DNA of 64,000 bases, taken from NCBI RefSeq assembly GCF_004342265.1, contig NZ_SMCS01000006.1, forward strand, positions 186,001-250,000, in the 5' to 3' direction. Source of the stretch: Luteibacter rhizovicinus (GTDB taxonomy: Bacteria > Pseudomonadota > Gammaproteobacteria > Xanthomonadales > Rhodanobacteraceae). The position numbers and the translations under genes are program-made. Below, piece by piece: positions 2,431 through 14,739 of the stretch (position 1 is the stretch's first letter; every line of letters starts with the position of its first letter). The notes below the pieces were generated by a model that was not told the DNA's origin, searched no databases, and saw nothing but the letters and a program-made list of their open reading frames with translations.

Positions 2431-2440
2431 CAAGCGCTTG
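2431..2440. promoter_or_regulatory. short LacI-type palindrome upstream of the regulator gene
   Basis: CAAGCGCTTG is a perfect 10-bp palindrome with the central CG of LacI/GalR-family operators. It lies 100 bases before the LacI-type gene start and 25 bases before the better operator candidate at 2465. It could be a second weak operator, but a 10-bp palindrome can occur by chance. Confidence 0.3.
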
Positions 2441-2464
2441 ATTTAATAGGCTTTACAAGTTCAC

Positions 2465-2480
2465 ATGAAAACGTTTACGT
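2465..2480. promoter_or_regulatory. predicted LacI-family operator (autoregulatory)
   Basis: ATGAAAACGTTTACGT matches the perfect operator at 6917-6932 in 14 of 16 positions and keeps the central AAACGTTT core. It covers an in-frame ATG at 2465, which is one reason to place translation initiation downstream at 2531. Binding here would give autoregulation of the LacI gene. Confidence 0.6.
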
Positions 2481-2530
2481 TCCGCGCCGACAGCCCATCA
2501 AGGGGCAGGGGCAAGGGTAGGCGAGACACT

Positions 2531-3553
2531 GTGAGCGTCACCATCAAAGACGTCGCAAAAATGGCCAACGTATCGGTGGCCTCGGTTTCGCGTGCCCTGA
2601 ATGGCCACGGCGGCGTGACTCCGGAGACGCAGAAGCGCATCCGCGAAGTCGCAGCACGCCTGCGTTACGTACCCCATAGCGCCGCCCGCAGTCTGATCAC
2701 CCGGCGGACGCAGACGATCGGCGCGCTGCTGCCCGACCTGCATGGCGCCTTCTTCTCCGAACTGATTCGCGGCATCGACATCGCCGCCCGCGCACGCGGC
2801 CTGTACCTGCTGGTCTCCAGCTCGCACGGCGATGCGGCCGAAGCGGCTGTCGCCCTGCGCGCCATGCAGGGACGTGTCGACGGTCTGCTGGTGATGTCGC
2901 CGCATGCCGACCAGGTGTTCCTCGACGACAACCTTCCGGTCCTGCTGCCCACGGTGCTGATGAACAGCCACGTGACGTCGGACCGTCATGCCGTACTGGA
3001 TGTCGACGACTACGGCGGCGCGCGGACGATGGTCGAGCACTTGCTCGCTAGTGGCCGTCAGCGCATCGCGTTCATCGCCGGCCCCGAGGTCAATCACGAC
3101 GTACAGGAACGCGCTCGCGGCTATCGCGACGCGCTGGAAGTTGCGGGCAAGGCCGACACGGCCTGCATTCTGCCCGGCGACTTCACCGAGGAATCCGGCT
3201 ACCGCGCCGGCAAGCAGGTGCTGGAGATGTCGCCCCGTCCGGACGCGATTTTCGCAGCCAACGACATGATGGCCATCGGCTGCCTGTCCGCGCTGGAAGA
3301 AGCCGGCGTGTTTGTCCCCGAAGACATCGGCGTCGCCGGTTTCGACGACATCCCCATGGCTCGTTACGTCTCGCCGCCGTTGACCACGGTGCGCGTGCGG
3401 ATCGCCGAACTCGGCGCCGCGGCGCTCGAACGCCTGGTCGGAATTATCGAAGCACCCGACGACGCACCGCCCCTACCCCGAGAGACCGTGAGCACCGAGC
3501 TGGTGATCCGGGCCTCCTGCGGCGGCGGCGAAACCGTACCCCGACGACTCTGA
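2531..3553 (+). CDS. LacI-family transcriptional regulator of the carbohydrate locus
   Basis: From the GTG at 2531 the protein has 340 residues, the usual family length, and begins SVTIKDVAKMANVSVASVSR, the classic LacI helix-turn-helix. It continues with a hinge (about 47-60) and a periplasmic-binding-protein-like effector domain (about 62-325) including the FDDIPMARYVSPPLTTV signature. An in-frame ATG at 2465 would add 22 basic residues, but it lies within a predicted operator and the family normally begins right at the HTH. The gene heads the TonB-receptor/ABC locus, and matching palindromes lie at 2465 and 6917, so a local regulator responding to an imported sugar is the natural inference. 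The effector is unknown. Confidence 0.88.
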   Translation: MSVTIKDVAKMANVSVASVSRALNGHGGVTPETQKRIREVAARLRYVPHSAARSLITRRTQTIGALLPDLHGAFFSELIRGIDIAARARGLYLLVSSSHGDAAEAAVALRAMQGRVDGLLVMSPHADQVFLDDNLPVLLPTVLMNSHVTSDRHAVLDVDDYGGARTMVEHLLASGRQRIAFIAGPEVNHDVQERARGYRDALEVAGKADTACILPGDFTEESGYRAGKQVLEMSPRPDAIFAANDMMAIGCLSALEEAGVFVPEDIGVAGFDDIPMARYVSPPLTTVRVRIAELGAAALERLVGIIEAPDDAPPLPRETVSTELVIRASCGGGETVPRRL

Positions 3554-3584
3554 TTCGCATGGCCGGGCATAACTTCGCCTCGCC

Positions 3585-3600
3585 ATGGAAACGATTACAC
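3585..3600. promoter_or_regulatory. degenerate LacI-type operator before the TonB receptor
   Basis: ATGGAAACGATTACAC agrees with the perfect palindrome at 6917 in 11 of 16 positions and keeps GAAACG and TTAC. It is about 200 bases ahead of the receptor start, in the gap between regulator and receptor. The match is suggestive only. Confidence 0.3.
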
Positions 3601-3789
3601 AGGACGGCTTCAACACCAAGGACGCGCGACATCCGCTGACCCGGGCACGCGGGAAGGCATGAGACACGGACAACAAGCTCCAGACAAAGGGTGGCTGCGA
3701 CCGCCCGAAACGACACAACGACGTCGGTATCCGTGCTCATGGCCAGTCGCGTCGAAACACTTAATTCAGCACCTTTTGGGAGGGGAATC

Positions 3790-6700
3790 ATGAGAGCCTC
3801 GATGCAGATCAAGAAGAAGTTACTCGCCAGCGTCATCACCGCCAGCGTTGCCGCCGCTGCGGTCTCGCCGATGAGCGCTTATGCCCAGTCGGCCGATGCC
3901 AGCCTGCGCGGCAAGGCCACGCCTGCCGCTACCGTCACCGCCAAGAACATCGCCACGGGCACCACCCGTCGGACGACGGTCGGTGCGGACGGTAGCTACG
4001 GCCTCATCGGCCTGCCCCCCGGCACCTACAAGGTCGACGCCGGCCCGGGTACCGAGAAGACGGTGACGCTGACCGTGGCTTCGAACGCCACACTGAACCT
4101 CTCCGCCGAAGCGGCTGCCGCCGCTACCACCACGGCTAATGCGGCCAACGCCGCGTCGCTCGAAGGTCTGACCGTCCAGGCGACAACGCTGACGGAAGTG
4201 AAGACGCCGGAAGTCGGTCAGACGATTTCGCTGCACCAGATCAGCACCATCCCGCAGGTATCGCGCAACTTCCTCGAATTCGCCGATACCGTTCCGGGCA
4301 TGGTCTTCAGCGTCGACGCGCAGGGTCATACCTCGCTGCGCGGCGGTGCCCAGAACAACAGCTCGACCAACGTCTACATCGACGGCGTGGGCCAGAAGAG
4401 CTACGTGAAGGAAGGCGGTATCTCGGGCCAGAACGCCAGCCAGGGCAACCCGTTCCCGCAGCTCGCCATCGGCGAGTACAAGGTCATCACCTCGAACTAC
4501 AAAGCCGAATACGACCAGGTGTCGAGTGCGGCCGTGACCGCCGAAACGAAGTCCGGCACGAACGAGTTCCACGGTGAGGTGTTCGGCACCTACACCAACG
4601 ATGCCTTCCGCAACCGCACGGCGGCCGAAGAATATACCGGCAAGAAGTCGACGTCGGACTCGAAGGAATACGGCTTTGCAGTCGGCGGTCCGATCATCAA
4701 GGACAAGATGCATTTCTTCATCGCGTATGAAGAAAAGAAATTCAATTCACCGATCTCCGTCGTCCCCGGCACCGTCAACTACTCCAACGTCCAGTCCCTG
4801 CTGCCGGCTTCCGCGCAGGCGGAACTCGGGCCGACGAACCTGCCGTTCAACGAGAAGTTGTACTTCGGCAAGATCGACTGGGAACTGACCGACCGCGACC
4901 GCATCGAAATCAGCACGCAGGTTCGCCGCGAAACGCAGCTGGACGGCGTGGGCTCGGGTCCGATCGCCGGCTCCGCGGGCTTCAACAACGTCAATCACGA
5001 TACACGCGCCACCTTCAAGTGGCAGCACAGCGGCGAAAGCTGGTTCAACGAGTTGATGTTCACGTACGAAAACGCGTTCGTGAACCCGACACCAGTGAAC
5101 GATGCCATCGGTTCGAGCTACACGTTCAAGCCGCAGCAGGATGCACTGATCCTGCAGACCGGTTCGGCCTCGCCGCTGGCCACGCAGAAGAAGAGCCAGG
5201 AAGGTCCGTCGATCCAGGACACCTTCACGTTCAACGATCTGCAGTGGAAGGGCGACCACGTCGTCAAGTTCGGCTATAAGTTCAAGTCGGTCGAGCTGAA
5301 GGCTCAGGATGCCGCCGCGAACAATCCGCAGTTCTACTACGACGTCGATCCCGTTAACGGCACGGCCGCTACTCCCTGGAAAGCGTTCTTCGCGACGCCG
5401 ATCCCGGGCCTTTCGGCTGTCTCGCAGACGACGTCGCGCCAGTACGGCATCTTCGCGCAGGACGACTGGGCGGTTAACGATCACCTGACCCTGAACCTCG
5501 GCGTGCGCTGGGACTACGAAGTCACGCCGTCGTACACCAACTTCGTGACGCCGCAGAACGTGATCGACGCGCTGAACTCGCAGGACACGAACAAGGGTGC
5601 GCCGGTAGGCCAGACGTACGCACAGTCGCTCGCACTCAGCGGTCTCAACATCAACGACTACATCAGCACGGGCAAGAACCGTAAGGCGTACAAGGGCGAA
5701 TGGCAGCCGCGTCTCGGCTTCTCGTACGACCTGTTCGCCGATGAAGCCCATGTGTTCCATGGCGGTGCCGGTCGTGCCTACGACCGCAACCTGTACGACT
5801 ACCTGCAGCTCGAGCAGACCAAGTCGTCGCTGCCGCAGACCACGCTGTACTTCAATGGCGCTCCGGGCGGCCGCACCTGCGACCTCGCCGCATCCAACTG
5901 CGTGCAGTGGGATCCGCGCTTCCTGCAAGGTCAGGCGGCTCTTGCCGGTGCCGTTGGCGCGACCAACGCGGGTCAGGAAGTCGACATGCTCAACAACAAG
6001 CTGAAGGCTCCGTACTCGGACCAGTTCAGCTTCGGCATGTCCAACCGCATCGGTGAATGGCAGACCGACGCGACCGTCACCCGCGTACTGACGCACGACG
6101 GCTTCGTGTTCACGCTGGGCAATCGTTACCCGACCCCTGGCTTTTTCCAGGACAAGAGCCAGCCGTGGGGCAACCCGATCCCGGGCTTGGGCGGTCTGAT
6201 CATCGGTAACAACGGCATCGCTACCCGTACCACACAGGTTCTGTTGTCCGCACAGAAGCCGTATACGGTGGAATCGGGCTGGAGCGCGACCTTCGCGTAC
6301 ACCTTCACGCATGCCAAGCAGAACCGCGCCATCTCCGAGCACTATGCGTTCGACGAGGCGTCCATCAGCGACTATCCGTTCATCACGTCGGATGCCGCCG
6401 CGAAGCATCGCTTCGTTGCAACCGGTGCGCTCGATCTGCCCTGGGGCATCACGGGCTCCATCAAGATGACGCTGGCCACCCCGCTGCCGAAGAACGACAT
6501 CGCCTGCTACGACGCCGTGTTCTCCAATGGCAGCGGTTGCCGCCCGGTCTCGGCCATTCCGCGTGGCTCGAAGTTCCTGGTCGGTGGCGACATCTGGGGC
6601 TACCGCGATATCGATCTTCAGCTGACCAAGGACTTCGTGATCAACGCAGACACGAAGGTCTATGCACGCTTCGATATCCTCAACGTCTTCAACTGGAAGA

Positions 6701-6831
6701 ACTACAACGACTACCTGACGAACTGGGGCTCCAATGGCGTGTTCAACGCCAACGGCGCGCAGTACAACCCGAACGGCAACATCACGTTCGTGCCGCGTAC
6801 GGCCCGCTTCACGGTCGGCCTGAAGTTCTGA
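3790..6831 (+). CDS. TonB-dependent outer-membrane receptor (Oar/carboxypeptidase-regulatory type)
   Basis: The protein has 1013 residues from the ATG at 3790, which has a strong GGGAGGGG Shine-Dalgarno; an in-frame start at 3691 is less likely. A signal peptide (about 1-32, ending AYA-Q) is followed by a carboxypeptidase-regulatory-like beta domain (about 36-115), an alanine-rich linker, a plug domain with the YIDGVGQ-type motif, and a long beta-barrel ending in Phe, as outer-membrane barrels do. Such receptors in Xanthomonadales import carbohydrates or other large substrates using TonB energy. Its place between a LacI regulator and a glycosidase/ABC operon suggests a glucan or oligosaccharide substrate. 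It is followed by two hairpins. Confidence 0.9.
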   Translation: MRASMQIKKKLLASVITASVAAAAVSPMSAYAQSADASLRGKATPAATVTAKNIATGTTRRTTVGADGSYGLIGLPPGTYKVDAGPGTEKTVTLTVASNATLNLSAEAAAAATTTANAANAASLEGLTVQATTLTEVKTPEVGQTISLHQISTIPQVSRNFLEFADTVPGMVFSVDAQGHTSLRGGAQNNSSTNVYIDGVGQKSYVKEGGISGQNASQGNPFPQLAIGEYKVITSNYKAEYDQVSSAAVTAETKSGTNEFHGEVFGTYTNDAFRNRTAAEEYTGKKSTSDSKEYGFAVGGPIIKDKMHFFIAYEEKKFNSPISVVPGTVNYSNVQSLLPASAQAELGPTNLPFNEKLYFGKIDWELTDRDRIEISTQVRRETQLDGVGSGPIAGSAGFNNVNHDTRATFKWQHSGESWFNELMFTYENAFVNPTPVNDAIGSSYTFKPQQDALILQTGSASPLATQKKSQEGPSIQDTFTFNDLQWKGDHVVKFGYKFKSVELKAQDAAANNPQFYYDVDPVNGTAATPWKAFFATPIPGLSAVSQTTSRQYGIFAQDDWAVNDHLTLNLGVRWDYEVTPSYTNFVTPQNVIDALNSQDTNKGAPVGQTYAQSLALSGLNINDYISTGKNRKAYKGEWQPRLGFSYDLFADEAHVFHGGAGRAYDRNLYDYLQLEQTKSSLPQTTLYFNGAPGGRTCDLAASNCVQWDPRFLQGQAALAGAVGATNAGQEVDMLNNKLKAPYSDQFSFGMSNRIGEWQTDATVTRVLTHDGFVFTLGNRYPTPGFFQDKSQPWGNPIPGLGGLIIGNNGIATRTTQVLLSAQKPYTVESGWSATFAYTFTHAKQNRAISEHYAFDEASISDYPFITSDAAAKHRFVATGALDLPWGITGSIKMTLATPLPKNDIACYDAVFSNGSGCRPVSAIPRGSKFLVGGDIWGYRDIDLQLTKDFVINADTKVYARFDILNVFNWKNYNDYLTNWGSNGVFNANGAQYNPNGNITFVPRTARFTVGLKF

Positions 6832-6836
6832 CGAAC

Positions 6837-6871
6837 TGTGCGACGGGTTCCGGCACGGAACCCGTCGCACA
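6837..6871 (+). terminator. strong 15-bp hairpin after the TonB receptor
   Basis: TGTGCGACGGGTTCC and its exact reverse complement (6857-6871) flank a five-base loop, five bases after the receptor stop codon. There is no U-tract directly after it, so it is better read as a 3'-end stabilising or attenuating hairpin, backed by the second hairpin at 6885. Confidence 0.65.
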
Positions 6872-6884
6872 TCGTTATGGTATC

Positions 6885-6907
6885 GGGGCCCTTGGGCCCC
6901 TTTATTT
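6885..6907 (+). terminator. Rho-independent terminator or attenuator
   Basis: GGGGCCC-TT-GGGCCCC forms a short, very GC-rich stem followed by TTTATTT. Together with the hairpin at 6837 it should end most receptor transcripts and allow separate control of the downstream enzyme operon. Confidence 0.7.
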
Positions 6908-6916
6908 GCCCTGACG

Positions 6917-6932
6917 ACGTAAACGTTTACGT
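6917..6932. promoter_or_regulatory. perfect LacI-family operator before the glycosidase/ABC operon
   Basis: ACGTAAACGTTTACGT is a perfect 16-bp palindrome with the central CG typical of LacI/GalR operators. It lies just after the terminator at 6885 and about 100 bases before the gene at 7029. The near-identical site at 2465, at the regulator's own gene, supports local control by that regulator. An adjacent TGCATGCC...GGCATGCA inverted repeat (6932-6953) may be unrelated. Confidence 0.75.
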
Positions 6933-7028
6933 GCATGCCACGGCCGGCATGCATACTCTCCCACCTGGAGGCTCCACCGCCGGTTCCGCCCTTAGGAATC
7001 CGCCCCGTACCGTTTAAGGATCCACGTC

Positions 7029-8510
7029 ATGCAAGTGAACAAGATCAAGCGTCTTTCCCTCGCCCTCGGCGCGCTGCTAGCATGCGCCGCTCCGTTCGCG
7101 GCGACCGCCAAGGCACCGGTGAAGAAAGAGAAAGAAGTCGCAACGGCATCGGCACTGAAACAGGTGCATGCCGTTCCACCGATGATCGCCGATCTTGAGA
7201 AGCGGACGTTCCAGTGGTTCTGGGACAGCGCCAATCCGTCCAACGGACTTATTCCCGATCACTATCCGACCGACTCCTTCGCGTCGATCGCGTCGGTGGG
7301 TTTCGGGCTGACCGCTTATGGCGTCGGCGTCGAACGCGGATACGTGACCCGTCAGCAGGCCATCGAACGCACGCTGACGACGCTGCGCTTCTTCAACAAC
7401 TCGGCACAAAACGATTCGGAAGACGGTGCGACCGGCTTCCACGGTTTCTACTACCACTTCCTCGACATGCAGTCCGGCAAGCGCTTTGCGCGCTGGGTCG
7501 AAGTGTCGACGGTCGATACCACGCTGCTGCTCGGCGGCGTGCTGTTCGCGCAGAGCTATTACGATCGCGATACGCCCGAAGAGAAAGAAATCCGCCAGCT
7601 CGCCGACGACATCTACCGCCGCGTCGAGTGGACCTGGGCGCAGCAGCGCAAGCCGCTGATCAGCATGGGCTGGACGCCGGGCGGCAAGTTCATTCCGCAC
7701 GACTGGAAAGGTTACGACGAAGGTATGCTCGTCTACATCCTCGCATTGGGTTCGCCGACCCATCCGATCGGCGACGATGCATGGAGCGCGTGGTCGGCGA
7801 CGTACAACAAGACCTGGGGCGAGTTCTACGGCCAGACGCATCTCGGCTTCGCACCGATGTTCGGTCACCAGTACAGCCACACCTGGGTCGATTTCCGCGG
7901 CATCCGCGATGCCTGGAGCCGCGATCACAACCTCGACTACTTCGAGAACAGCCGCCGCGCCACGTATTCGCAGCAGGCGTATGCCGTCGCCAATCCGGGC
8001 AAGTGGACGGGATACGGCAAGAACGTCTGGGGTCTCACGGCCAGCAACGGCCCCGGTGGCCTGATCGTCAAGAACGGCGACACCGAGCGCACGTTCCACG
8101 GCTATACCGCGCGCGGTGCCGGCATCGACTACATCTCCGACGACGGCACCATCGTGCCGACGGCGGCGGGCGGATCGATCGCGTTCGCGCCGGAGATCGT
8201 CATTCCCGCGCTTGAAGAAATGAAGCAGAAGTACGGCCAGTACGCCTATACGAAGTACGGCTTCGTCGATGCATTCAACCTCAGTTTCCACACGCAGACC
8301 GATATCCGTACGGGTCGTCTCGTACCGGACGTGGGCTGGTTCGATACCGTGCACCTGGGCATCGACCAGGGTCCGATCGTGCTGATGATCGAAAACCATC
8401 GCAGCGATTTCGTCTGGAACGTGATGAAGAAGAACCCGTATATCCGCAAGGGTCTCGAGCGGGCGGGCTTCACTGGCGGCTGGCTCGAGCAGGGCGCCAA
8501 AGCCGAATGA
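7029..8510 (+). CDS. secreted glucoamylase-like (PF10091/GH144-type) glycoside hydrolase, probable beta-1,2-glucanase
   Basis: This 493-residue protein has a signal peptide (MQVNKIKRLSLALGALL..., cleavage near residue 27) and then an alpha/alpha-barrel type domain carrying patterns of the PF10091 family: RTFQWFWD, GFHGFYYHFLDMQSGKR, GYDEGMLVYILALGSPTHP and GQTHLGFAPMFGHQYSH. GH144 endo-beta-1,2-glucanases belong to this family, so cleavage of beta-1,2-glucan in the periplasm or outside is the best guess; the substrate is inferred, not shown. It is the first gene of an operon with a solute-binding protein and two ABC permeases, and its TGA overlaps the next ATG by four bases. An operator-like palindrome precedes it. 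Confidence 0.78.
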   Translation: MQVNKIKRLSLALGALLACAAPFAATAKAPVKKEKEVATASALKQVHAVPPMIADLEKRTFQWFWDSANPSNGLIPDHYPTDSFASIASVGFGLTAYGVGVERGYVTRQQAIERTLTTLRFFNNSAQNDSEDGATGFHGFYYHFLDMQSGKRFARWVEVSTVDTTLLLGGVLFAQSYYDRDTPEEKEIRQLADDIYRRVEWTWAQQRKPLISMGWTPGGKFIPHDWKGYDEGMLVYILALGSPTHPIGDDAWSAWSATYNKTWGEFYGQTHLGFAPMFGHQYSHTWVDFRGIRDAWSRDHNLDYFENSRRATYSQQAYAVANPGKWTGYGKNVWGLTASNGPGGLIVKNGDTERTFHGYTARGAGIDYISDDGTIVPTAAGGSIAFAPEIVIPALEEMKQKYGQYAYTKYGFVDAFNLSFHTQTDIRTGRLVPDVGWFDTVHLGIDQGPIVLMIENHRSDFVWNVMKKNPYIRKGLERAGFTGGWLEQGAKAE

Positions 8511-9799
8511 GCAAACGCGGCATTCGACGTGGCGGGATCGTGGCGCTGGCCCTCACCGGCGCCATGATCCTTGCCGGTTGTGCGAAAGAAGACGCATCGT
8601 CGCGCACGCTCGATTTCTGGACCATCGGCCGCGAGGGACAAGCGGTCGAGAAGTTACTGCCGGAGTTCGAACGCGAACATCCCGGCTTGCACGTCAACGT
8701 GCAGCAGTTGCCCCTGACTGCCGCGCACCAGAAACTGTTGACGGCATTCGCGGGCAATTCGACGCCGGATGTCACGCAGCTCGGCAATACCTGGGTGCCC
8801 GAAATGGCGGCGCTTGGCGCGCTGGAACCGCTGCAGTCGCGCGTCGACGCATCGAAGATCATCCGGACCGACGATTACTTCCCCAGCATCTGGGCGACCA
8901 ACGTCATCGACGGCACGCTTTACGGTGTGCCCTGGTACGTGGACACGCGCCTGCTGTTCTATCGCAAGGACCTGCTGGCCAAGGCTGGCTTCGACCATCC
9001 GCCTCGCGACTGGGTCGAATGGCGCGAGATGATGGCGAAGCTCAGTCAGCCGGTCGGTACGACGTACGGCATCCTGATGCCGACGAATGAATTCGAGCAG
9101 TTGCTGTCGCTTGTGCTGCAGCAGGACGATGCGCCGCTGCGCGATAACAATCGTTACGGCAATTTCCGTAGTGCGGGATTCAAGCGCGCGCTGACGTTCT
9201 ATGTCGATACGTTCAAGCTGAAGCAGGCGCCGTTGATCACGAACGTCGGCGTCGGCAATCCGTGGGCCGCCTTCGGCCAGGGGTATTACACCTTCTATCT
9301 TTCGGGTCCGTGGAATATCGGCGAGTTCCGCAAGCGTCTTCCCGAAGCGCAACAGAAAGACTGGTCGACGGCGCCGCTGCCGGGTCCGACCGGTCCGGGT
9401 GCATCGAACGCGGGCGGCTCCAGTCTGGTGATCTTCCGCGCGTCGAAGCATAAGGACGACGCCTGGGCGCTTATCGACTTCCTGTCGCGCCCCGACATAC
9501 AGGCGCGTTTCTACGAGATTCTGGGCGACATGCCACCGCGTCGTTCGTCATGGGAAATGGACGCGCTGCGTAACGACCCGGAAGCCGCCGCATTCCGCGA
9601 TCAGCTGGAACGCGTGAAGGCGACGCCGCCCATTCCCGAGTGGGAACGCATCGTGACCGAAATGCAGCTGCTGGCGGCGGAAGCCGCGAGCGGCAAGAGA
9701 AGCGTTGACGATGCCGCGGCCGAACTCGACCGGCGCACCGACGCGATCCTGGAAAAGCGGCGCTGGATTCTCGACCACCCCCGGAGTGACGCCAAGTGA
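8507..9799 (+). CDS. sugar ABC transporter solute-binding lipoprotein (family 1)
   Basis: This 430-residue protein has a lipoprotein signal ending LAGC (Cys25) and continues into an extracellular solute-binding protein family 1 fold (TLDFWTIGREGQ near 33, GVPWYVDTRLLFYRKDLL near 145, GPWNIGEF near 265). It should capture the oligosaccharide released by the GH144-type enzyme and present it to the two permeases that follow. It overlaps its neighbours by four bases on each side. Membrane anchoring of a binding protein is less common in Gram-negatives but frequent in this order. Confidence 0.88.
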   Translation: MSKRGIRRGGIVALALTGAMILAGCAKEDASSRTLDFWTIGREGQAVEKLLPEFEREHPGLHVNVQQLPLTAAHQKLLTAFAGNSTPDVTQLGNTWVPEMAALGALEPLQSRVDASKIIRTDDYFPSIWATNVIDGTLYGVPWYVDTRLLFYRKDLLAKAGFDHPPRDWVEWREMMAKLSQPVGTTYGILMPTNEFEQLLSLVLQQDDAPLRDNNRYGNFRSAGFKRALTFYVDTFKLKQAPLITNVGVGNPWAAFGQGYYTFYLSGPWNIGEFRKRLPEAQQKDWSTAPLPGPTGPGASNAGGSSLVIFRASKHKDDAWALIDFLSRPDIQARFYEILGDMPPRRSSWEMDALRNDPEAAAFRDQLERVKATPPIPEWERIVTEMQLLAAEAASGKRSVDDAAAELDRRTDAILEKRRWILDHPRSDAK

Positions 9800-10674
9800 A
9801 TACCTCGCGCGCCGCCTGGCTGTTCCTCGCTCCCGCGCTGATCGTGCTGGGCATGTTCTTCCTGTTGCCCGTGCTCGCGGCGTTGATCCTCAGCCTGACG
9901 GACTACGATCTCTACGCGCTGGCGGATATCCGCAACCTGCGCTTCGTCGGGCTGGAAAACTACTGGACACTATTGCATCGTCCGTTGTTCTGGTCGGCGC
10001 TTGGACACACGGTGTATTTCGTGGCGGTAGGCGTGCCGCTTTCGCTTATCGCTTCGCTGGGTGCGGCCATGCTGCTGAACTCGCCGCTCGCGCGATGCAA
10101 GCCGTTCTTCCGTACCGCGCTGTTCGCGCCGGTCGTGACGACCGTAGTCGCGGTCGCCGTGATCTGGCGTTATCTGTTCAATACGAAGTACGGCCTGGTG
10201 AACTCGGTGCTCGATGGCATCGGCGTCGCACCCATCGACTGGCTGGGCGATCCGCACTGGTCGATGCCGACGATCATCCTGTTCGCCGTGTGGAAGAACT
10301 TCGGCTACAACATGATTATCTTCATGGCCGGTCTGCAGGCCATTCCCGCCGATCTTTACGAAGCCGCGCGCATCGACGGCGCCTCGGCGCTGCGCCAGTT
10401 CCAGCACATCACGCTGCCGATGCTCAAACCCACGATGGTGATGGTGAGCATCCTGACGGTATCCGGTTACTTCCAGCTGTTCGCCGAACCGTATGTGATG
10501 ACCGAAGGCGGTCCGTTGCAAAGCACGACCAGCGTTCTGTACCTGATGTACGAAGAAGGCTTCAAATGGTGGAACCTCGGTTCCGCGTCGGCCGTTGCGT
10601 TCCTGCTCTTCATCATCATGTTCGCCGTCACGGCGGTCATGCTGCGACTGTCGCGCCGCGGAGGTGAAGTATGA
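9796..10674 (+). CDS. sugar ABC transporter permease (MalF-type)
   Basis: The 292-residue protein has six predicted membrane helices and the cytoplasmic EAA loop EAARIDGASALRQFQHITLP, the contact site for the ATPase. It begins with GTG, overlapping the TGA of the binding-protein gene. With the next gene it forms the heterodimeric channel of a CUT1-type sugar importer. No ATP-binding subunit is encoded in the operon. Confidence 0.9.
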   Translation: MNTSRAAWLFLAPALIVLGMFFLLPVLAALILSLTDYDLYALADIRNLRFVGLENYWTLLHRPLFWSALGHTVYFVAVGVPLSLIASLGAAMLLNSPLARCKPFFRTALFAPVVTTVVAVAVIWRYLFNTKYGLVNSVLDGIGVAPIDWLGDPHWSMPTIILFAVWKNFGYNMIIFMAGLQAIPADLYEAARIDGASALRQFQHITLPMLKPTMVMVSILTVSGYFQLFAEPYVMTEGGPLQSTTSVLYLMYEEGFKWWNLGSASAVAFLLFIIMFAVTAVMLRLSRRGGEV

Positions 10675-11492
10675 ATCCGCGTATCGCCAAAGCGATCATC
10701 AATGGCTTGCTGATCGCAGGCGCCGTCGTCGCATTGCTGCCGCTGTTGTGGATGGTATCCGTATCGTTCATGACGCAGGGCGAGGCCAGTTCGCTGCCCG
10801 CGCCGCTGTTCCCGAAACATGCGACCTGGGCCAACTACCGCGAACTGTTCGCCAACGCGGGCATGGGCCGCTACCTGCTCAACAGCCTGCTCGTTTCCAC
10901 GGCGATCACCGCCGTCTCGCTCGCGTTCAATCTGATGGCTGGTTACGCGTTCGCCAAGTTGCAGTTCGCCGGTCGCGAACGGCTGTTCCAGGGGTTGCTA
11001 GGCGCGCTGGTCATTCCCGCGCAGGTGGCGATGCTGCCGCTGTTCCTGCTGCTGAAGTACCTGGGTCTGGTCAACACGTACGGCGCGGTCATCGTGCCGG
11101 CCATGGCCACCATTTTCGGTATCTTCCTCGTGCGTCAGTATGCGCGCGGCATTCCGGACGATCTGATGGAAGCGGCGCGGATCGATGGCGCCGGCGAGAT
11201 GCGCATCTTCGTCACCATCGTGATGCCGTTGCTGAAGCCGATCATGGTGACGCTGGCGATCTTTACCTTCCTCGCCGCATGGAACGACTTCATGTGGCCG
11301 CTGATCGCGCTGACCGGCCAGGAACATTACACGTTGCCGATCGCGCTGGCGTCTCTGTCGCGCGAACACGTGCAGGACAGCGAACTGATGATGGCCGGCT
11401 CGGTGGTAACGATTCTCCCCGTGCTGCTGCTCTTTCTCGCACTGCAGCGCTACTACCTCGAAGGTCTGCTGCTGGGCAGCGTCAAGGGATAA
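10671..11492 (+). CDS. carbohydrate ABC transporter permease (MalG-type)
   Basis: This 273-residue partner permease has six membrane helices and the EAA motif EAARIDGAGEMRIFVTIVMP. Its ATG overlaps the stop of the first permease by four bases. It lies five bases before the glycosidase at 11497, so all five genes from 7029 to 14220 look like one transcription unit. The ATPase must come from elsewhere in the genome. Confidence 0.9.
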   Translation: MNPRIAKAIINGLLIAGAVVALLPLLWMVSVSFMTQGEASSLPAPLFPKHATWANYRELFANAGMGRYLLNSLLVSTAITAVSLAFNLMAGYAFAKLQFAGRERLFQGLLGALVIPAQVAMLPLFLLLKYLGLVNTYGAVIVPAMATIFGIFLVRQYARGIPDDLMEAARIDGAGEMRIFVTIVMPLLKPIMVTLAIFTFLAAWNDFMWPLIALTGQEHYTLPIALASLSREHVQDSELMMAGSVVTILPVLLLFLALQRYYLEGLLLGSVKG

Positions 11493-11496
11493 ACAC

Positions 11497-14220
11497 ATGC
11501 TTCTTCGTTCGATCCTCGCCACAGCCGCGCTCACCGCCGGCTGTCTGCTGCCTTGCGCGTATGCGCAGACGGACGCCCGCCTTCTCGACGGTTTCGACCG
11601 TGCCGCGAACTGGACAGTCGGACATACGGACGACGTCAGTGCGACGCTGCGTCAGGACGGCGGTTCGCTGTGCCTGGATTTCGACTTCAACGGCGTATCC
11701 GGTTCCGCGTCGCTGAAGCGCGAGCTGCCCATCGACTATCCCGGCAACTTCGCGCTTTCGTTCGACGTGCGCGGGTCGATGTCGCCGAATACCTTGCAGC
11801 TGAAACTGATCGACGACAGTGGCGACAATGTCTGGTGGTATCAACGTCCCGCTTTCGTGCCCACGAAGGATTGGCAGCACATCGAAGTGCGTCGCAAGGA
11901 TATCGAGTTCGCATGGGGTCCCACGAAGGACCGGGTGCTCACGAAAACCGCCGCCGTCGAATTCATGATTTACGCGGAGAAGGCCGGCAAGGGTCGGGTC
12001 TGCTTCGACAACCTCCGCCTTAAACCGTTGCCGCCCGAGCCGGCGAATGCCGCTCCGTCCACGGCAGCCGCCACGCCACCCAAAGTGTACTTCCAGGCGC
12101 AGGCGAAGAAAGTACGGCGCGGACTCTATCCGCGCGGATTCTCCGGCGAACAGTCTTACTGGACGCTGGTCGGCGTCGACGGCGGTAGCGCGGAGTCCGC
12201 ACTGATCTCCGAGGACGGCGCGATCGAAGTGAACAAGGGCGGTTTTTCCATCGAACCCTTCGTGCTGGACAACGGCAAGCTTGTTACCTGGGCGGACGTT
12301 CGCGCGTCGCAGTCGCTGCTGGACGGTTATCTCCCGATACCGTCCGTTCAGTGGAAGACCGGCGCGCTGGGGCTCGAGACGACGGTGTTTGCCCAAGGCG
12401 AAGCGGGGCGCTCCGAACTGGTTATGCGTTACCGCGTGTCGAACGATGGCGATGCCGCTCGCGATGTCACGCTGGCCTTGATGGCCAGGCCGTTCCAGGT
12501 CAATCCACCCACGCAGTTCCTCAATTCACCCGGTGGCACCAGCCCGATCCATGATTTCGCCTGGGATGGAAAGAAGCTCACTGTCAATGGCGTGCACGTC
12601 GTCGTTCCACTGCAAAAGACGGATGACTTCGTTGCCAGCAGGAATACCGATGGTTCATTGCCCGAACGCATCGCGGCGGGCCAGCATCCTTCGGTTGCCA
12701 AACTGCACGACGACCTCGGCTTCGCCCAGGGTGCGTTTCTCTATCGCTTGCATGTGCCTGCGAAAGGCCACGTCGATCTTGGGCTGGTCGTTCCTTCCAT
12801 TTCGTCCGCGCATGTCGACGTGCCCGCGAACACGGCAATGTGGCTGGAAAGTCGGCTCGATGCCATCGCGTCCACATGGCGCGAAAAGCTGAACCGCGTC
12901 TCGATCGAAGCCCCCACGGCCGCGCAACCCATCGTCGATACGATGCGCAGTGGCGTCGCGCAGATACTGATGTCGCGCAACGGTCCCGCGTTACAGCCGG
13001 GCACGCGTTCGTATGGACGTACCTGGGTACGCGACGGCGCGATGATGCTCGAAGGGTTGCTGCGCACCGGTCATGCCGACGTCGCGGGCGAGTTCGTCGA
13101 CTGGTACGCGCCGCATCAGTTCAGCAACGGCAAGGTGCCATGTTGCGTGGACGCGCGCGGCTCCGATCCGGTACCGGAGAACGACAGCCACGGCGAACTG
13201 ATCTTCAGCGTCGCCGAGCTTTACCGCTATACGCACAATCGCGAGCAACTGACGGCATTGTGGCCTCACGTCGAACGCGCGGTTGCGTACATGGACAAGC
13301 TGCGGTTAAGCGAGCGCACCGACGCGCAACGCAACGGCCCGCTGTATGGACTGATGCCCGCCTCGATAAGTCACGAAGGCTATTCGGCCAAGCCGATGCA
13401 TTCGTACTGGGACGATTTCTGGGCCATGAAGGGCTATGACGATGCGGTCGATCTGGCCGCGACGCTCGGGAAGACGGGCGATGCGAAACGCATGGGCGAG
13501 TCGCGCGATACGTTTCGTACCGATCTGCATGCATCGATCGCCGCCGCGGTGAAAGAGAAGGGCATCGATTTCATTCCCGGTTCGGCGGAACTCGGTGACT
13601 TCGATGCGACGTCGACGACGATCGCCATATCCCCCGGTGACGAGCAGACGCGGTTGCCGGCCGACCTGGTGCAAGGCACCTTCGAACGCTACTGGCAGGG
13701 TTTCGTCGCGCGACGCGACGGCAAGACCGCGTGGGACGATTACACGCCGTACGAACTGCGTACGGTAGCGACCTTCGTGCGCCTCGGCTGGCGGGATCGC
13801 GTGCAGGAGTTGCTTGCCTTCTTCTTTGCCGATCGTCGACCCGCCGCCTGGAACCAGTGGGCTGAAGTCGTGGGCCGCGATCCGCGCAAGCCGCGCTTCG
13901 TCGGCGATATGCCGCATGCGTGGATCGCTTCGGACTATGTGCGGTCCGCGCTGGACCTGTTCGCCTATGAACGCGCCAGCGATCACGCGATGGTGCTTGG
14001 CGCAGGCGTGCCGATGACGTGGCTGGATGGCAAAGGCATCGCGGTACGCGATATGCGTACGCCATACGGGAAGCTGGGTTACACGCTGCGTCGCGAGGAT
14101 GGGAAGGTTGTGCTGACGATTACCGGCGATGCGAATCCGCCGGGGGGTTATGTGCTGGCGTTGCCGAAGGGTGAGGTGCGGGTGGCGAAATCCGCGACCC
14201 ATCTCGACGTTCGGCTGTAG
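11497..14220 (+). CDS. large secreted glycosidase: carbohydrate-binding-like domain plus (alpha/alpha)6-type catalytic domain
   Basis: The 907-residue protein has a signal peptide (about 1-24), then a jelly-roll domain resembling CBM11/CIA30 modules (about 29-170), then a long region ending in an all-helical, six-hairpin-like glycosidase domain (about 460-840). Around residue 508 lies RTWVRDGAMM, reminiscent of the WVRDG motif of GH15-like enzymes, followed by NDSHGELIF and PHAWIASDYVRS. I cannot place it in a numbered glycoside hydrolase family. Position at the end of the GH144/ABC operon implies that it trims the same glucan or releases side chains. Acidic residues at the RD and ND motifs are plausible catalytic candidates only. 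Confidence 0.75.
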   Translation: MLLRSILATAALTAGCLLPCAYAQTDARLLDGFDRAANWTVGHTDDVSATLRQDGGSLCLDFDFNGVSGSASLKRELPIDYPGNFALSFDVRGSMSPNTLQLKLIDDSGDNVWWYQRPAFVPTKDWQHIEVRRKDIEFAWGPTKDRVLTKTAAVEFMIYAEKAGKGRVCFDNLRLKPLPPEPANAAPSTAAATPPKVYFQAQAKKVRRGLYPRGFSGEQSYWTLVGVDGGSAESALISEDGAIEVNKGGFSIEPFVLDNGKLVTWADVRASQSLLDGYLPIPSVQWKTGALGLETTVFAQGEAGRSELVMRYRVSNDGDAARDVTLALMARPFQVNPPTQFLNSPGGTSPIHDFAWDGKKLTVNGVHVVVPLQKTDDFVASRNTDGSLPERIAAGQHPSVAKLHDDLGFAQGAFLYRLHVPAKGHVDLGLVVPSISSAHVDVPANTAMWLESRLDAIASTWREKLNRVSIEAPTAAQPIVDTMRSGVAQILMSRNGPALQPGTRSYGRTWVRDGAMMLEGLLRTGHADVAGEFVDWYAPHQFSNGKVPCCVDARGSDPVPENDSHGELIFSVAELYRYTHNREQLTALWPHVERAVAYMDKLRLSERTDAQRNGPLYGLMPASISHEGYSAKPMHSYWDDFWAMKGYDDAVDLAATLGKTGDAKRMGESRDTFRTDLHASIAAAVKEKGIDFIPGSAELGDFDATSTTIAISPGDEQTRLPADLVQGTFERYWQGFVARRDGKTAWDDYTPYELRTVATFVRLGWRDRVQELLAFFFADRRPAAWNQWAEVVGRDPRKPRFVGDMPHAWIASDYVRSALDLFAYERASDHAMVLGAGVPMTWLDGKGIAVRDMRTPYGKLGYTLRREDGKVVLTITGDANPPGGYVLALPKGEVRVAKSATHLDVRL

Positions 14221-14288: not shown

Positions 14289-14639
14289 TCAGTGAGTCGC
14301 CACGCGAGTCCGCAGCAGCGCATCCACTGCCTGCTGCCATTCCGTCGATCCCGACTTCTGCTGCGGCGCTTCCTCACCGAGCTTGGTCTGCACCGCCGAG
14401 TTCCACTCAGGCGTGCCGGGTGCCGGGCCGTGACCGTCGTCGCTGACGGCAAGGGTCCGATCGACCCAGGCATACCAGTCCGGCGAACCCAACGCGGGAT
14501 TGGCGGGCGCGGTCTTACCCGGTGCGGGTTCCGTTGCCGGCGCGGAGGCGGAGGCGGAGGCGGTTTCCGGGGAGGAGGGCGAGCACGCCGCGAGGATCGC
14601 GGCGAGGGTGAGCGGAGCGATGGTAAACAACAGACGCAT
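14289..14639 (-). CDS. small putative lipoprotein of unknown function
   Basis: From the ATG at 14639 the product has 116 residues and begins MRLLFTIAPLTLAAILAAC, a clear lipoprotein signal with the modified Cys at 19. A Ser/Ala/Pro-rich linker (about 20-50) leads to a small domain with two similar segments, GSPDWYAWVDRTL and GTPEWNSAVQTKL. These look like an internal repeat of a WxxxVxxxL unit, and a third related segment GSTEWQQAVDALL sits near the C-terminus. An in-frame start at 14681 would bury the signal. I do not recognise the family. Confidence 0.7.
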   Translation of the reverse strand: MRLLFTIAPLTLAAILAACSPSSPETASASASAPATEPAPGKTAPANPALGSPDWYAWVDRTLAVSDDGHGPAPGTPEWNSAVQTKLGEEAPQQKSGSTEWQQAVDALLRTRVATH

Positions 14640-14739
14640 AGGCGGGTCCTGCAGGGGAACGGATACCCCAAGCCTAGCCACCCACGCGTCCGAAACGATT
14701 AACCCCGCTTAACATCAAGGTCTTACGACCCGCCGCCGT

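Follow-up and report, generated by a model that had tools for sequence, protein, structure and literature searches.

The seven-gene locus described here lies in a 64,000-nucleotide stretch of Luteibacter rhizovicinus (hereafter the window; bases 186001-250000 of contig C6, in a genome of 4.47 Mb and 22 contigs), and its closest described counterparts are the beta-1,2-glucan utilisation clusters of other bacteria. Those of Listeria innocua (lin1839-1841) and Streptomyces griseus (SGR_2422-2427) combine a Lin1841-type solute-binding protein (SBP) in an ATP-binding cassette (ABC) importer with beta-1,2-glucan-active enzymes and a beta-glucosidase of glycoside hydrolase (GH) family 3 or 1 (PMC12369401). 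In Xanthomonas, the operon type of XCC2207 (XcSGL, structure 8xul) has the same gene order as the window, as seen in X. arboricola (L122). For regulation, the nearest parallel is Caulobacter GluR, likewise of the LacI family, which is predicted to control zwf-pgl-edd-glk (PMC4052901).

Homology, synteny, co-occurrence, palindrome positions and a predicted fold together make it very likely that the window locus is a TonB-linked beta-1,2-glucan utilisation operon with scattered partners under putative LacI control. Unlike the Listeria and Streptomyces clusters, it belongs to a Gram-negative bacterium and has a TonB receptor, a GH144 enzyme, a 907-residue exported protein, a LacI palindrome, and an ATPase and a GH3 enzyme encoded elsewhere. 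It departs from the Xanthomonas type in that its large enzyme has no discoidin insert and its ATPase lies on another contig. Whereas the GluR gene stands beside the glucose operon and its product recognises a 20-bp palindrome (PMC4052901), the window's LacI gene is in the glucan operon itself. We regard the locus as a variant of the known clusters and as one part of a bigger pathway whose genes are spread beyond it. A literature search of titles and abstract openings returned no description of the operon, of its regulon or of the ligand of 3uor, the solved Xanthomonas relative of its SBP.

Gene layout and proposed pathway

The order proposed in an earlier note on this DNA (regulator, receptor, hydrolase, SBP, two permeases, large enzyme) agrees with the open reading frame (ORF) coordinates and with the Pfam families found: LacI, OMP_b-brl_4/TonB receptor, PF10091 'Glycoamylase', SBP_bac_1 and two BPD_transp_1. 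All seven ORFs are on the plus strand, and a check of the ORFs with a Pfam scan left their order and coordinates as first listed:

2465..3553, plus strand: LacI-family regulator (ORF and Pfam; probable start GTG 2531, by eye)
3691..6831, plus strand: TonB-dependent receptor with a carboxypeptidase-regulatory domain (ORF and Pfam; probable start ATG 3790)
7029..8510, plus strand: predicted GH144 endo-beta-1,2-glucanase, signal peptide by eye (Pfam, match to 8xul, residues E231/F278/Y359)
8507..9799, plus strand: solute-binding lipoprotein of Lin1841/3uor type, lipobox LAGC by eye (Pfam, matches to sequences of solved structures)
9796..10674, plus strand: ABC permease 1, MalF/UgpA type (Pfam/NCBIfam)
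10671..11492, plus strand: ABC permease 2, MalG/UgpE type (Pfam/NCBIfam)
11497..14220, plus strand: exported 907-residue protein, signal peptide by eye, probable unclassified glycoside hydrolase (ORF, AlphaFold, fold search)

For the regulator, GTG 2531 is the more probable start, a putative operator overlapping the ORF's first position at 2465; for the receptor it is ATG 3790, where a signal peptide, recognised by eye, begins. Four-base overlaps join GH144 to SBP, SBP to permease 1 and permease 1 to permease 2, and translational coupling is therefore likely. No SusD family occurs among the Pfam matches of the locus proteins, so the locus does not qualify as a polysaccharide utilisation locus of the Bacteroidetes type.

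In the pathway that we propose, the TonB receptor would take linear or cyclic glucan across the outer membrane, and the periplasmic GH144 enzyme would cut it to beta-1,2-glucooligosaccharides, which the 907-residue enzyme would trim or debranch from the end. The SBP would pass the oligosaccharides to the two permeases, for which an orphan ATPase of UgpC/MsmX type (G000:C2) would provide the energy. In the cytoplasm a GH3 beta-glucosidase (also G000:C2), presumably the enzyme used at this step, would yield glucose for the Entner-Doudoroff route. LacI would act through a single 14-bp palindrome to repress the operon together with its scattered partners. The earlier note had called the locus self-contained; that description does not hold, since the predicted route uses genes elsewhere (the ATPase, the GH3 gene, a large-enzyme paralog and possibly an Entner-Doudoroff operon).

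We would give an even chance to a wider proposal taken as a whole: that the 907-residue protein founds a new GH family acting with GH144 on beta-1,2-glucan in the periplasm, that LacI controls the whole pathway as a regulon with members at five or more places in the chromosome (glucan operon, ATPase, GH3, large-enzyme paralog, Entner-Doudoroff operon), and that the Xanthomonas 'MalE' binds beta-1,2-glucooligosaccharides. If the proposed pathway holds, the Gram-negative route for a polymer relevant to plant-microbe contact would be complete, the Xanthomonas binding protein 3uor, whose structure is solved, would gain a ligand, operator sites would have identified the importer's missing ATPase, and an enzyme family that lacks a Pfam model of its own would come into view in 61 of the 250 genomes sampled from the order.

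Substrate of the enzyme and the binding protein

The GH144 assignment stands on firm homology. The protein scores 276.5 bits against PF10091 (cut-off 27) and 641 bits against its best solved relative, 8xul, with the other six solved relatives at 221 or below; the clan residues E239, F286 and Y367 of XcSGL are retained as E231, F278 and Y359. XcSGL is active on beta-1,2-glucan, and its E239Q mutant was solved with sophoroheptaose (PMC12102758). The SBP scores 526 bits against 3uor, 238 against Lin1841 and 128 against GacH. Lin1841 is its nearest relative with a known ligand, GacH being next, and that ligand is beta-1,2-glucooligosaccharides of 3-5 units (PMC12369401). The relation to XcSGL and the SBP's likeness to Lin1841 are in keeping with the substrate that the earlier note had suggested, and beta-1,2-glucan as the predicted substrate in Luteibacter is well supported by these comparisons.

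The syntenic X. arboricola operon (L122) encodes proteins near-identical to the solved ones, a GH144 enzyme with 1105 bits to 8xul and an SBP with 914 bits to 3uor. Judged through this locus, 8xul and 3uor very probably derive from an operon of the window's kind.

It is very improbable that the locus is instead a maltose or alpha-glucan importer whose GH144 protein and GH15-like large enzyme act on alpha-glucans. That view could draw on nomenclature, in that the Xanthomonas relative is named Xac-MalE and Pfam calls PF10091 'putative glucoamylase', as well as on GH15 enzymes among the fold matches of the 907-residue protein and on a stretch of that protein with 22 bits to TIGR01577 (GH15), which fails the cut-off of 820.7. 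The specificity of 3uor is, however, listed as unknown (PMC7676653), the GH144 relative XcSGL works on beta-1,2-glucan, and the SBP is closer to Lin1841 than to GacH, an acarbose/maltose protein.

Conservation of the operon

We examined named loci fetched by the large gene, the best 80 of at least 579. Some of these loci end at a contig edge. Within the 80, SBP and both permeases are present in 79, GH144 in 77, the receptor in 70 and LacI in 64; SBP, both permeases and the large gene occur jointly in 79, and together with GH144 in 77. This co-location is far beyond chance. In a further set of relatives, GH144, SBP, two permeases and the large gene stand together in 30 of 30 stretches. The loci are mainly from Xanthomonadales, with others in Duganella, a Hyphomicrobium metagenome-assembled genome and elsewhere, and the closest named relatives in the large-gene scan are mostly Luteibacter.

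Two neighbouring genes recur at some of these loci. In L062 (5856-7439, family by Pfam) and 13 others of the 80, a Trp_halogenase-family flavoprotein gene separates the receptor from GH144; the window lacks it. A 130-residue ORF without a Pfam match (window 14289-14681, minus strand) has counterparts adjoining the operon in 11 of the 80.

The missing ATPase

As the earlier note observed, an ORF and Pfam scan finds no ATPase encoded in the locus. Two ATPases with a MalK OB domain occur in the genome. One appears by eye to belong to a polyol-uptake operon; the other (G000:C2:633404-634492), on a different contig from the locus, is an orphan with no permease gene adjoining by eye, and at 467 bits it passes the cut-off of 432 for the NCBIfam model UgpC. 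An ATPase at C3:540342, the first MsmX candidate, was dropped, as it adjoins an FtsX-like gene (by eye). The search for an orphan CUT1 ATPase that the earlier note had recommended thus yields one, of UgpC/MsmX type, with the locus's palindrome upstream.

Its distribution points the same way. Of 250 genomes sampled from the order, 61 carry the large gene, though in two of them (G032, G211) it is only a paralog of 35-36% identity. Relatives of the orphan ATPase (E 1e-120) occur in 77 of the 250: in 61/61 genomes with the large gene or paralog versus 16/189 without (compared by a Fisher test that ignores relatedness). No more than 15 kb separates the ATPase from the large gene in at least 24 of the 61, and 33 of the 80 named loci include a MalK-like gene, in one of them (L107) at only 24% identity. 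In several Xanthomonadaceae, zwf, glk, pgl, edd and eda (named by eye) lie between the ATPase and the operon. The full co-occurrence, the UgpC-type orphan and its palindrome support the earlier suggestion that the importer may borrow an MsmX-type ATPase.

Operator-like palindromes

In 54 of 55 loci, all but L165, the 180 nt surrounding the LacI start contain a 14-bp palindrome, TGTAAACGTTTACA, with 12 or more of its 14 positions matching; among random 180-nt stretches, 14 of 1100 hold it at that level. These 55 loci are 54 named ones plus the window, 10 of 65 having been left out as their LacI start is less than 120 nt from the locus edge. In the 64-kb window, matches of at least 11/14 begin only at 2466, 3586 and 6918, all within the locus. 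The whole genome has 8 sites with at most two mismatches, compared with 1 for the reversed pattern; six of the 8 are at genes of the proposed route, three of these six in the operon. The 8 sites, all from pattern scans, are:

2466..2479 of the window, no strand: TGAAAACGTTTACG (12/14 to TGTAAACGTTTACA), at the LacI start
3586..3599 of the window, no strand: TGGAAACGATTACA, between LacI and the TonB receptor
6918..6931 of the window, no strand: CGTAAACGTTTACG, upstream of GH144 (also in 11/11 operon regions of the genus)
C2: 109 nt before the orphan ATPase
C6:75597: before a large-enzyme paralog with a discoidin domain
C6:136544: before a zwf-pgl-edd-eda operon (pgl by eye)
C4:6609: one mismatch, about 74 nt upstream of a hybrid histidine kinase gene (L185:6696-8873)
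C1:565692: no obvious gene

A further site, matching 11/14, lies about 116 nt upstream of the GH3 gene, whose product has no signal peptide (L056:8588-10750, G000:C2). These positions suggest that LacI binds the palindrome and represses the operon and its scattered partners.

The palindrome recurs in relatives. Twelve genomes of the genus have 3-8 sites each, 70 in total (control 0-3), and we took 55 stretches covering 67 of the 70, three G218 sites being missing. The LacI and GH144 sites are present in 11 of 11 operon stretches of the genus. A GH3 ortholog (81-83%) with a site occurs in six of the twelve, a GH3 of 64% beside LacI with a site in one, and an ATPase site in two.

Directly upstream of the ATPase, all 20 relatives have a match of at least 11/14 at 35-127 nt, and 13 of 20 reach at least 12/14; among 2000 random 270-nt stretches, 91 reach 11/14, a figure that is too high because the loci they were drawn from had mostly been chosen for sites. 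Among the 32 named ATPase loci (the 33 MalK matches after L107, at 24% identity, was filtered out), 22 have at least 12/14 before the ATPase, versus 17 of 960 random stretches. This divides by ATPase type: with an ATPase of 61-74% identity, 22 of 23 loci have a site of at least 12/14 and the last has 11, whereas none of the 9 loci with the distant type of 46-48%, found within the operon in L110 and L118, has a site of at least 12/14. Both zwf and the ATPase are present in 13 loci, as divergent neighbours in 7, and in five of these 7 the gap contains a site of at least 12/14, nearer the ATPase.

The 907-residue protein

The large enzyme has no Pfam match at E <=1. An AlphaFold model from a 55-row alignment reached a predicted local distance difference test score of 91.8 and a predicted TM-score of 0.90; the single-sequence model scored 38 on the former and was not used. 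By eye, residues 28-177 of the model form a sandwich resembling a carbohydrate-binding module, residues from about 222 to 433 a supersandwich and those from about 446 to 822 an (alpha/alpha)6 barrel; there is also a beta end. Foldseek/VIA-align places it among structures of GH15, GH65, GH94, GH95, GH78 and GH116 enzymes, which share its supersandwich and (alpha/alpha)6 barrel, at 9-15% identity and without any one family standing clearly closest. Among the acidic residues of the barrel, D513, E561, D563, E627, D639, D703, E753 and E790 are invariant; E627, D639 and E790 are candidate catalytic residues. An insert of about 90-125 residues, mostly a discoidin domain, is present in 39 of the 55 rows and absent from the window protein; Pfam recognises the discoidin domain in 12 of 21 aligned members of the family.

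On this modelled fold, the protein is probably an unclassified glycoside hydrolase, and it is a likely partner hydrolase because its gene stands beside GH144 in 77 of the 80 loci. It is perhaps an exo-enzyme. In G054, a large-enzyme paralog (L088:15529-18606) lies divergently beside the GH144 end of the operon, an arrangement that fits a shared pathway.

Cytoplasmic enzymes and the source of the glucan

The earlier note had reported no cytoplasmic phosphorylase or glucosidase. That is correct for the window locus and does not extend to Duganella, where the loci keep GH1 and GH94 genes inside: in D. radicis (L118) the operon continues, on one strand, with the large gene, GH1, GH94 and MalK, and L110 has the same arrangement by eye. 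The Duganella GH94 gene was considered as a 1,2-beta-oligoglucan phosphorylase, and the solved enzyme of that kind, 5h42, is absent from its 19 sequence matches, in which comparison cellobiose phosphorylase stands at 295; we therefore call the gene cyclic-glucan-synthase-like. The GH1 of the window genome was rejected as the cytoplasmic enzyme, being only 45% identical to that of Duganella, and because of this GH3 is preferred. Among solved relatives, the GH3 protein scores 602 bits against 5tf0, 583 against 5xxl (BT_3567) and 511 against Lin1840 (4zoa).

Our search of the genome for a free GH94 phosphorylase found a single GH94 match, which lies in a putative synthase; no Pfam model matched the glycosyltransferase part of that synthase. 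OpgG and OpgD were sought and not found, with a positive E. coli control. Conceivably the locus serves to take back cyclic beta-1,2-glucan made by the cell itself rather than to scavenge foreign glucan, a role compatible with beta-1,2-glucan utilisation. We consider it unlikely, since a TonB receptor gene, present in 70 of the 80 loci, would be needless for periplasmic glucan, and no palindrome of at least 11/14 occurs in the 20 kb around the synthase.

How far the regulon extends

Several observations weigh against a LacI-controlled pathway dedicated to beta-1,2-glucan. Some concern the regulator: only 31 of the 67 sites in the genus are at route genes, with 10 at other recognised genes and 26 unassigned, and the Entner-Doudoroff operon appears in 0 of the 55 site regions from the twelve genus relatives. 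The site between LacI and receptor is found (>=12/14) in only 11 of 53 loci, and that of the window genome's GH3 reaches only 11/14. In three genomes that lack the large gene (G115, G198, G174), the ATPase is likewise preceded by the palindrome; the combination of palindrome and ATPase is therefore not exclusive to the operon. Others concern the proteins: receptor identity drops to 34-36% in five of the 30 stretches from the further set, and NCBIfam names the GH3 protein BglX (734 bits, cut-off 666). Weak matches to Bac_rhamnosid6H (alpha-L-rhamnosidase six-hairpin; best E 3.6e-7) occur in 17 of 21 scanned relatives of the 907-residue protein, which may therefore cut something other than beta-1,2-glucan; a rhamnosidase- or fucosidase-like action is conceivable.

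The regulatory points raise the possibility that LacI is a general glucose or beta-glucoside regulator, like Caulobacter GluR/BglR, with beta-1,2-glucan as one of several substrates sharing the ATPase. The three genomes just named would fit such a regulator, as would the palindromes before the zwf-edd-eda operon in the window genome, before the hybrid histidine kinase gene of this genome and of three relatives, and, in four relatives, before a different GH3 (45-46%); the zwf-pgl-edd-glk control predicted for GluR (PMC4052901) offers a precedent. Yet only 8 sites occur in the genome, three of them in the operon, and the rest may serve other LacI paralogs. We view a general regulator as doubtful, though less so than the recycling of the cell's own glucan, and retain the beta-1,2-glucan operon with its scattered partners as the preferred interpretation.

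The ten other recognised sites in the genus comprise four at the 45-46% GH3, three at a histidine kinase, two at a distant receptor and one at another LacI. The histidine-kinase relative (62-63%) has its site at 88-89 nt in L225, L245 and L253. The 45-46% GH3 has a 14/14 palindrome upstream in L217, L241 and L256, and the L217 copy has a signal peptide by eye. In L204, L210, L221 and L248, a site lies about 51-52 nt before a small gene that resembles, by eye, a polyhydroxyalkanoate regulator.

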